Origin: Brevundimonas subvibrioides
Lineage (GTDB): Bacteria > Pseudomonadota > Alphaproteobacteria > Caulobacterales > Caulobacteraceae
Assembly: GCF_027271155.1 (NCBI RefSeq)
Contig: NZ_CP114542.1
Span: forward strand, 2,713,001-2,777,000
DNA length: 64,000 nucleotides
Reading direction: 5' to 3'
The position numbers and the translations under genes are program-made. Below, piece by piece: positions 62,197 to 63,830 of the stretch. Below the pieces are notes generated by a model. The model was not told where the DNA came from, ran no database searches, and was given only the letters and a program-made list of their open reading frames with translations. Position 1 is the first letter of the stretch; the number at the start of each line of letters is the position of its first letter.

Positions 62197-62613
62197 ATGT
62201 CCCCCTTAACCGCCCCCGAATATCCAACCCTGTCCACGCTCTCCACGGGCCTGCGCTGTCGCTGTCCGCGCTGTGGCAAGGGGCCGCTGCTGCAGGGATA
62301 CCTGACCATCCGACCCGCCTGTCCGGCCTGTGGTCTGGACTATAGCTTTGCCGAGCCCGCCGACGGCCCGGCCTTCTTTGCCATGTCCGCGATCGGCGTC
62401 ATCGGCATGGTGGCATTCATGGCGTTCGAGTTCACCGTCCACCCGCCGATCTGGGTGCATTTCGCCTTTACCTTTCCCCTGATTGCCGCGGCCTGCCTGC
62501 TGGTGCTGCGGCCTTTCAAGGGCTGGCTGGTGTCAGAGCAGTACGTCCACAAGGCCGCGCCGCCCGAGTGGGAAAGCATCGGTGGCCACGGCGAGGGGTC
62601 GAAGTGGAAATGA
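62197..62613 (+). CDS. DUF983 membrane protein
   Basis: Protein of 138 aa with a zinc-ribbon-like start, GLRCRCPRCGKGPLLQGYL and CPACGLDYSF (four Cys in CxxC pairs), and two helices (AMSAIGVIGMVAFMAFEF; FAFTFPLIAAACLLVLRP). DUF983 proteins occur beside cytochrome oxidase or regulators; function unknown. ATG at 62197 has AGGAG at 7-base spacing. Confidence 0.9.
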   Translation: MSPLTAPEYPTLSTLSTGLRCRCPRCGKGPLLQGYLTIRPACPACGLDYSFAEPADGPAFFAMSAIGVIGMVAFMAFEFTVHPPIWVHFAFTFPLIAAACLLVLRPFKGWLVSEQYVHKAAPPEWESIGGHGEGSKWK

Positions 62614-62618
62614 AGGTG

Positions 62619-62695
62619 TGGCGGCCCCGGAGGGACTCCAACCCCCGACCTCGGCTTTAGGAAAGCCTTGCTCTATGCAGCTGAGCTACGGAGCC
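62619..62695 (-). tRNA. tRNA-Arg (anticodon CCT)
   Basis: A 77-nt cloverleaf on the minus strand. Acceptor arms GGCTCCG / CGGGGCC pair with one G-T; the D arm reads AGCTCAGCTGCATAGAGC-like; the anticodon loop TTCCTAA has CCT at 62661-62659; the T arm contains GGTTGGAGTCC. Discriminator G and CCA are encoded. Confidence 0.95.
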
Positions 62696-62917
62696 GTTGG
62701 CCGCGTCCTAGCGGGTCGCGCCGCAAGGGGAAAGATGGGCCCGGGATTTCGACGCCAGCGGACGGCCGTTTGCCCCTGTTGACCGAATCTTTTTTGTGGT
62801 TAATAGGCATTAAGATACAATATCTTGGGGTGAACAAACCCCGAATCGAACGTGGTCGCCGATTCGGTCCTGATTCGTTTCCGCCCTGTTCCGCACTCGC
62901 CTTGCTGGGCGTTAAGC

Positions 62918-63217
62918 TCAACGTCGGAGGATGAGAATGAGAGTGCTGTTCGCCTGAACGTTGTAGTCGGCAAGGGTGCGATTATCCTCCAACTCCCGAC
63001 CGGCGAAAATGATTCTCTGCCGGTCGCCGGGCACGCCTTTCTGATCCTGGACCTTGGTCTTGACGTTCTCGATAGTGTCACTGGGTTCGACCTGCAGAAC
63101 AATGACGCTGCGATCAGGCATCCTCAGAAACACCTCCATGGCGAATGCAGGGGACACGAAGGCCGTCATCACAGATATTGAGATGGCCAGGGCCCAGGCT
63201 TTCAGGGGTCGCATCAT
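62918..63217 (-). CDS. exported ubiquitin-like protein
   Basis: Protein of 99 aa. Residues 1-26 are a Sec signal ([20 protein letters not shown] then VSPAFA), and cleavage after AFA would leave a mature chain starting MEVFLRM. That 73-residue chain aligns without gaps to eukaryotic ubiquitin: [11 protein letters not shown], then [19 protein letters not shown] and STL are at the same positions, about 43 of 73 identical by eye. Of the seven ubiquitin lysines only K27 and K29 remain; K48 is Arg and K63 is Ala. Ile44 is kept. The chain ends at Arg72-Arg73 and lacks the Gly-Gly tail. ATG at 63217 has GGAG at 7-base spacing. The region is about 55% GC, below its neighbours. No E1/E2/E3-like or protease gene adjoins it. 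Confidence 0.92.
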
Positions 63218-63243
63218 GAACAATCTCCATGTGTCAAAGCGGC

Positions 63244-63274
63244 AGGATAGTGTGGGGCCTGTTCGCCCTGTCAA
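63244..63274 (-). promoter_or_regulatory. candidate promoter of the ubiquitin-like gene
   Basis: On the minus strand TTGACA (63274-63269) and TATCCT (63249-63244) are spaced by 19, or ACTATC by 17. Start of transcription would fall about 20 bases before the ATG at 63217. By-eye match only. Confidence 0.4.
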
Positions 63275-63389
63275 TCATGCCCGGGGCCGCCGCAAAAGTA
63301 TGCCGCCCGGGACCCGGTTGGAGCTCCCGCTGCATGGCCGAGCAGAATCTTCGAATTGACGCTCACTACGGCTGTTGAAAGAGCATCCA

Positions 63390-63830
63390 ATGACCCTCGA
63401 CGCCCTGTTCAACATCGCAAATCTGGTTGCCCTGGCCGGATGGATCATCCTCGCGTTCGCTCCGTTGCGACGAGGTGCGATCGTCGCGGCGGCACGCTGC
63501 ATCGTGGTCGCCCTGGCCGTCGCCTACACCATTCTTCTGGTCCAGGCGGTCGCGGGCGGCGGGCTGGGTGGCGATCTGACCACCCTGTCGGGCCTGACCG
63601 AAGGGTTCAGCCAGCCGCGCGCCGTGCTGGTCGGCTGGGTCCACTATCTGGCCTTCGATCTGTGGGTGGGATCCTGGGCGATCGAGGACGCGGGCAAGCG
63701 GGGCGTGCCGCACTGGGCCATGCTGCCGGTCCTGTTCCTGACGCTGATGGCGGGGCCGATCGGCCTGCTGACCTATCTGGTCGTCCGCGCTCGTCCTGGA
63801 CGTCAACAGCCGCCCGCGTTGACGACTTAG
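63390..63830 (+). CDS. ABA4-like (DUF4281) membrane protein
   Basis: Inner-membrane protein of 146 aa with four helices: LFNIANLVALAGWIILAF, AARCIVVALAVAYTILLV, VHYLAFDLWVGSWAI and MLPVLFLTLMAGPIGLLTYL. The string GWVHYLAFDLWVG and FNIANLVALAGW mark the family, whose plant member ABA4 acts in neoxanthin formation; bacterial roles are unclear. The ATG at 63390 is preferred over a TTG at 63375. Divergent from the ubiquitin-like gene. Confidence 0.85.
   Translation: MTLDALFNIANLVALAGWIILAFAPLRRGAIVAAARCIVVALAVAYTILLVQAVAGGGLGGDLTTLSGLTEGFSQPRAVLVGWVHYLAFDLWVGSWAIEDAGKRGVPHWAMLPVLFLTLMAGPIGLLTYLVVRARPGRQQPPALTT

Follow-up and report, generated by a model that had tools for sequence, protein, structure and literature searches.

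A predicted exported, anchorless ubiquitin homologue in Brevundimonas and its scattered relatives among bacteria

Secretion of ubiquitin by a bacterium is already in print for Bacteroides fragilis, whose BfUbb (structure 8hm2) is the one characterised secreted bacterial ubiquitin found in the literature searched. In PMC3352274, recombinant BfUbb inhibits ubiquitination in vitro and, in the absence of reducing agent, becomes covalently linked to human E1, and its C-terminal residue is a cysteine. According to PMC5705921, BfUbb inhibits some strains of its own species, the strains that make it apparently do without an immunity protein, and glycosylation has been suggested for it. Here, we describe a gene within 64,000 nucleotides of Brevundimonas subvibrioides (contig NZ_CP114542.1, positions 2,713,001 to 2,777,000; this whole stretch is called the window) that encodes a true ubiquitin homologue with a predicted export leader, no anchor and an end at residue 73. 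To judge from its sequence, the product would most likely be a released, non-conjugating binding protein. Genome and protein are labelled G000 and P0001, respectively, and the parts of the gene are as follows.

62918..63217, minus strand: predicted exported ubiquitin gene, 99 amino acids, stop codon at 62918-62920; frame, strand and coordinates verified
63140..63217, minus strand: putative signal peptide, residues 1-26, identified by sequence from a basic N terminus, a hydrophobic core and A-F-A just ahead of the cut; its DNA shares homology with the leader of the ubiquitin gene in another Brevundimonas, G034
62921..63139, minus strand: mature ubiquitin domain, 73 residues corresponding to ubiquitin positions 1-73, assigned by Pfam, PDB matches, alignment and model
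63225..63228, minus strand: GGAG, Shine-Dalgarno-like, 7 bases 5' of the ATG

The initial annotation, made from the sequence alone, had read this gene as a ubiquitin homologue over residues 1-73 at about 59% identity without a gap, and the profile search and structure prediction that it proposed both bear this out. The gap-free alignment with human ubiquitin holds 43 identical residues of 73 (58.9%), PF00240 matches clearly at E 4.6e-23 (81.2 bits; cut-off 25.4), and PDB ubiquitins align to residues 26/27-98 of the precursor. The AlphaFold2 model has the beta-grasp fold, with a mean pLDDT of 96.3, and overlays 1UBQ at 0.5 Å. Chance similarity to ubiquitin was considered and is excluded by the E-values. 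The leader, which had likewise been read as an export signal, ends in SPAFA directly before the mature Met, and the assigned start is supported by the upstream GGAG.

The mature chain stops at ubiquitin position 73, ending RR, and Gly75-Gly76 are absent, as first described. Ubiquitin needs these two glycines for attachment through the usual E1-E2 pathway, and classical conjugation of the window protein is therefore not possible. The reported loss of K48 and K63 also holds and extends to five of the seven ubiquitin lysines (K6R, K11S, K33Q, K48R, K63A), only K27 and K29 being kept, with K34 as a new lysine. Nine of the 14 positions that we take to form the core of the ubiquitin structure are unchanged, and the other five (3, 5, 30, 43 and 61) carry other aliphatic residues. 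Residues 17-27 are identical to human ubiquitin throughout (11/11), against 4/16 for residues 1-16, the N-terminal hairpin. R42 and R72 are retained, and within the Ile44 patch (L8, I44, H68 and V70), I44 is kept and the other three are changed (L8P, H68I, V70I). These substitutions, together with the low identity of the hairpin, suggest that the usual docking face has been eroded.

Ubiquitin is present in 6 of 131 Brevundimonas genomes, including the window genome, a single contig of 2,973,988 bases with this one ubiquitin gene. The survey thus found ubiquitin genes elsewhere in the genus. The window gene is not an isolated oddity, and the initial annotation had missed four versions with an IPTL-CTERM tail and a wider family. 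In those four genomes (G001, G023, G055, G068), leader and ubiquitin are followed by IPTL-CTERM, with PF18203 directly behind ubiquitin in all four and TIGR04174 above its cut-off in the two tested. XrtH, which we take to be the exosortase serving IPTL-CTERM, was matched by TIGR04177 in 15 of the 131 genomes (14 above cut-off); PF09721 is insensitive here, detecting nothing in 14 genomes of which TIGR04177 gave XrtH in 5. XrtH occurs in five of the six ubiquitin genomes and in 10 of the 125 without ubiquitin (Fisher p 5.7e-5, uncorrected for kinship, so that the true strength is less). The sole exception is the window genome, which has no TIGR04177 match. No IPTL-CTERM was matched in the window protein at E up to 10, and none in any protein of the window genome, or of G152, G012 and G014, at E up to 0.01. 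Elsewhere in the genus, L102 (G039:C1:2650339-2650626) matches XrtH in part, scores below cut-off, contains three internal stops and looks like a decayed gene.

Such a distribution could arise if the window gene were a truncated remnant of the anchored type, its tail cut off and its product leaking since XrtH was lost. Consistent with this, four of the five other ubiquitin-bearing Brevundimonas combine the IPTL tail with XrtH and the window genome has neither, and the window ubiquitin frame stops at the edge of a 452 bp difference from its sister genome (see below). The leader DNA argues otherwise. The window leader matches that of the anchorless G034 gene with a local score of 53 (best of 500 shuffles, 31), but not the four anchored leaders, for which the scores are 18-24, each equalled by at least 38 of 500 shuffles; the G034 leader scores 18-28 against the same four, each equalled by at least 16 of 500, and the anchored leaders match one another in the three pairs tested. 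No IPTL-like remnant was seen in the three frames of the 217 bases downstream. G034, moreover, has XrtH and 23 IPTL-CTERM matches, yet its ubiquitin is anchorless, so the absence of an anchor does not simply follow from a lack of XrtH.

A tree of 99 short ubiquitin rows, in which 68 of the 94 inner branches are open and the bootstrap had not settled, places the anchored Brevundimonas genes with human ubiquitin in a 68-row part (98/86) that does not include the window gene, a further point against truncation. The window protein instead clusters with P0115 (98/95), a metagenomic protein that is exported and has no anchor. The phylogeny that had been called for thus gave the window gene a partner, but with most forks open it does not point to a donor. 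Truncation we regard as very unlikely. By its leader DNA, common with one other Brevundimonas, the window gene appears to belong to a separate anchorless type, formed in this genus by the window and G034 genes. Speaking against a single anchorless type, and to that extent for truncation, the tree sets G034 on its own very long branch rather than beside the window, and the G034 ubiquitin is strongly diverged (62.3 bits; 28% identical to the window protein), ending PRG.

The DNA around the gene is arranged as follows.

62926..63377, no strand assigned: approximately 452 bp present here and absent at the collinear site of sister genome G152, from alignment, with a margin of several bases at the edges; contains almost the whole ubiquitin gene together with the region upstream of it
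62619..62695, minus strand: tRNA-Arg(CCT), left neighbour (L108 9120-9196)
63375..63830, plus strand: right neighbour, a gene for a membrane protein of ABA4-like type (PF14108), its ATG probably at 63390

Low guanine-plus-cytosine (GC) content had been taken as a hint of transfer, with which composition and patchy presence are both consistent: the open reading frame has 56.0% GC and its mature part 55.0%, against 67.2% for the window, in a dip spanning roughly 62500-63500. An SDR gene beyond the ABA4-like gene, present in 18 of the 131 genomes including the window's own, returned 19 loci, 15 of which were aligned at the site, namely all except the window's own locus and three from two distant genomes. 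None of these 15 loci carries ubiquitin at this site; G034 is the one genome among the 15 with a ubiquitin gene, which lies elsewhere, and the other 14 lack one altogether. In the alignment with the sister genome G152 (SDR 98% identical), the stretches that match window positions 62615-62923 and 63378-65201 adjoin each other save 2 bases, and G062 has a 21-base gap between the aligned flanks at the corresponding site. The left edge of the extra DNA falls in the last codons of the ubiquitin gene, so that its final Arg and stop codon align with DNA also found in G152. The ABA4-like gene fails to align at the window site in most other aligned loci. Gain of the ubiquitin gene at this site is the simplest reading of the alignments. 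In G034, however, the gene with the homologous leader belongs to the same neighbourhood, at a distance of approximately 1.7-2 kb, and occupies the place apparently filled by the ABA4-like block in G173 and G041, so that one older insertion with reshuffling and losses is also conceivable. Relative to window positions 62619-65523, two genus loci (L125, L127) appear to have the spacer/ABA4-like block and the SDR/isomerase pair in swapped order, and the tRNA-Arg neighbourhood has therefore been reshuffled within the genus.

We looked for an integron-like or terminal-repeat element around the 452 bp and found no convincing matching ends; a possible short direct repeat, seen by eye only, consists of GCTCAACGTC near 62916 and GCTCACTACGGC near 63357. 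Across the genus, besides G000, the inserted DNA gave just two short partial matches, one to the ubiquitin gene of G023 itself (67% over 171 bases) and one of 28 bases in G054. A phage search gave no match; among 72,556 plasmid records, two matched, with identities of 46.5% and 44.3%. Contamination, one of the circumstances that had been named as refuting the observation, is unlikely, the gene lying inside a contig of 2.97 Mb between collinear Brevundimonas neighbours.

Outside Brevundimonas, we used aligned exported ubiquitins to scan GTDB genomes and obtained 304 loci, the best 80 of which were read; because the scan picked conserved ubiquitin words and ranked by likeness to the query, this set is biased toward conserved members. 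All 80 match PF00240, and 22 are titled as named cultured strains. A hydrophobic stretch lies within 45 residues before ubiquitin in 75 (exceptions L055, L060, L070, L071 and L085), and more than three residues follow ubiquitin position 76 in 78 (exceptions L048 and L076). The tails include autotransporter (16), SLH (8), IPTL-CTERM (6), dockerin (5) and T9SS (2) domains, which together cover at most 37 of the 80, more than half having none of the five among the families listed (25 of 52). Outside the 80, P0112 scores above the LPXTG cut-off and P0085 below the NPXTG one. Seventy-nine proteins were parsed by pattern, the missed L067 being judged by eye to have a leader and a long C-terminal part. 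These 79 are 69-99% identical to human ubiquitin (median 90%) and keep K48 in 65, K63 in 75, I44 in 73 and GG at 75-76 in 6. Under even sampling, ubiquitin genes turned up in 6 of 385 Alphaproteobacteria, a count that includes the window genome and one match below cut-off, and in 2 of 398 genomes across the phylum, again with the window genome counted. Predicted exported ubiquitins are thus rare within any clade yet scattered over many phyla.

Recurrent neighbours were sought across the 80 loci; the top two groups, from 28 and 14 loci, look, by position, like antisense frames of the ubiquitin gene itself. Third in size comes a family resembling lipoproteins or membrane proteins, present in six Clostridia loci (L008, L012, L020, L030, L064, L080), located 0.5-3.3 kb upstream of the ubiquitin gene and bearing an NPxxNxCxF-like stretch; a Pfam search of one member gave no match. 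An exported-type ubiquitin gene also resides on pRUMAL01 (L169; NC_014824.1, 3004-3744), a 421 kb Ruminococcus albus 7 plasmid typed as mobilizable, where it is annotated 'ubiquitin family protein' and adjoins small hypothetical proteins and a dockerin protein. Archaeal records with such genes are L028, L043, L066 and L071 (Methanotrichaceae, Methanothrix, Methanosarcinales and a Euryarchaeota metagenome-assembled genome), the ubiquitin of L071 being internal, with no leader right before it. Eight putatively viral IMG/VR contigs (L161-L168) encode a relative of the query ubiquitin alignment.

The conservation of these relatives bears on the main rival explanation, that the window protein is a mimic or decoy directed at eukaryotes, binding ubiquitin-binding proteins or blocking ubiquitin enzymes of protist grazers or hosts. 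Several relatives come, by their source titles, from rumen samples, a protist-rich place, and a bacterial ubiquitin acting on human E1 has its precedent in BfUbb (PMC3352274). The window protein keeps R42, I44 and R72, which favours this reading; with L8, H68, V70, K48 and K63 changed and its hairpin diverged, the case for docking to eukaryotic ubiquitin-binding domains is weaker here, and the 80 loci lean toward conserved members through the way they were chosen. We consider this explanation unlikely for the window gene; from the sequences compared, it would suit the conserved relatives better. For those relatives, we raise the possibility, with the odds somewhat against it, that bacteria and some archaea use ubiquitin as an extracellular head domain, placed directly after the signal peptide, approximately 90% identical to the eukaryotic protein and mounted on the lineage's own anchor (autotransporter barrel, exosortase/IPTL-CTERM, S-layer, dockerin, T9SS or sortase-like tails), where it would serve as a displayed mimic or contact ligand toward protists or rival bacteria. 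The window gene would then be a released head with a diverged surface.

For the window protein, we favour an exported, released, anchorless ubiquitin that docks non-covalently, likely on an envelope protein of competitors, and would give this explanation as a whole a probability of roughly 0.45. Signal peptidase would cut off the leader, the mature protein would stay in the periplasm or be released, and its ubiquitin fold would dock non-covalently on a protein target outside the cytoplasm, most likely, by analogy with BfUbb, a protein in the envelope of related competitor bacteria. On this basis, a role as a competition factor against related bacteria is our tentative choice, held at a little less than even odds, and patchy presence with no co-arrived gene beside the window gene fits it. 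Several points weigh on the other side: cysteine, the last residue of BfUbb, is absent from the mature window protein; identity to BfUbb is 49%, no higher than the 59% to human ubiquitin; that the protein leaves the periplasm is an assumption; and scans for a promoter and a terminator at the gene gave 0 and 0 matches. The C-terminal Cys of BfUbb reportedly matters for target binding.

The 90% cluster of the window protein has one member, from which within-species conservation cannot be judged, and this too weighs against a role in competition and would agree with a gene that has recently arrived or is drifting and serves no selected function, a ubiquitin cassette with a working leader in front that is being lost. 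The missing gene in the sister genome, the GC content still at 56% and a leader that, of five further Brevundimonas ubiquitin genes, just one shares point the same way. Frame, Shine-Dalgarno sequence, leader and fold are intact, though, the core changes are confined to aliphatic swaps, and P0115 and the G034 gene have the same build; we hold such a relic to be decidedly unlikely. There is a small chance that the protein acts in some way other than competition, an effect on eukaryotes or as a relic.

No paper on anchored bacterial ubiquitins was among the matches listed in our literature searches, in which subscription journals were thinly covered and the IPTL-CTERM/exosortase query itself came back empty. 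As far as these listings tell, three observations are apparently new: ubiquitin as the first domain of predicted secreted, partly anchored proteins across phyla; the co-occurrence of predicted exported ubiquitin with XrtH in Brevundimonas; and a separate putative anchorless type that includes the window gene. A single curiosity thereby becomes a family with a comparative design (anchored or released, docking face conserved or eroded, with and without XrtH), and the role of an extracellular ubiquitin for a bacterium becomes testable in culturable bacteria.

Among known systems, the ThiS/MoaD beta-grasp proteins have a ubiquitin-like fold, as the window protein does, but retain both glycines at the end of the chain and function in making thiamine and molybdopterin (PMC3352274); the window protein is ubiquitin by sequence, with a predicted export leader and no diglycine. 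The IPTL-CTERM ubiquitins of other Brevundimonas share with it the genus and a leader directly before ubiquitin, and differ in their tail, XrtH, leader and place in the tree. With BfUbb, the window protein has in common a predicted signal peptide, a single ubiquitin domain, no terminal glycine, no anchor, no evident immunity gene, and patchiness, among strains for BfUbb and among species here; it differs in phylum, in its moderate sequence identity, in lacking the C-terminal cysteine and in being known from sequence alone. Closest in build are the anchorless proteins P0050, P0068, P0072, P0081, P0115 and P0118 (the last from Sphingomonas canadensis, named 'ubiquitin family protein' at NCBI), which, like the window protein, consist of a leader and ubiquitin and nothing more. 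Their ends vary, with LRLRGG kept in P0050, P0072, P0081 and P0118, RGD in P0068 and RRG in P0115, alongside the PRG of G034 and the RR of the window protein.
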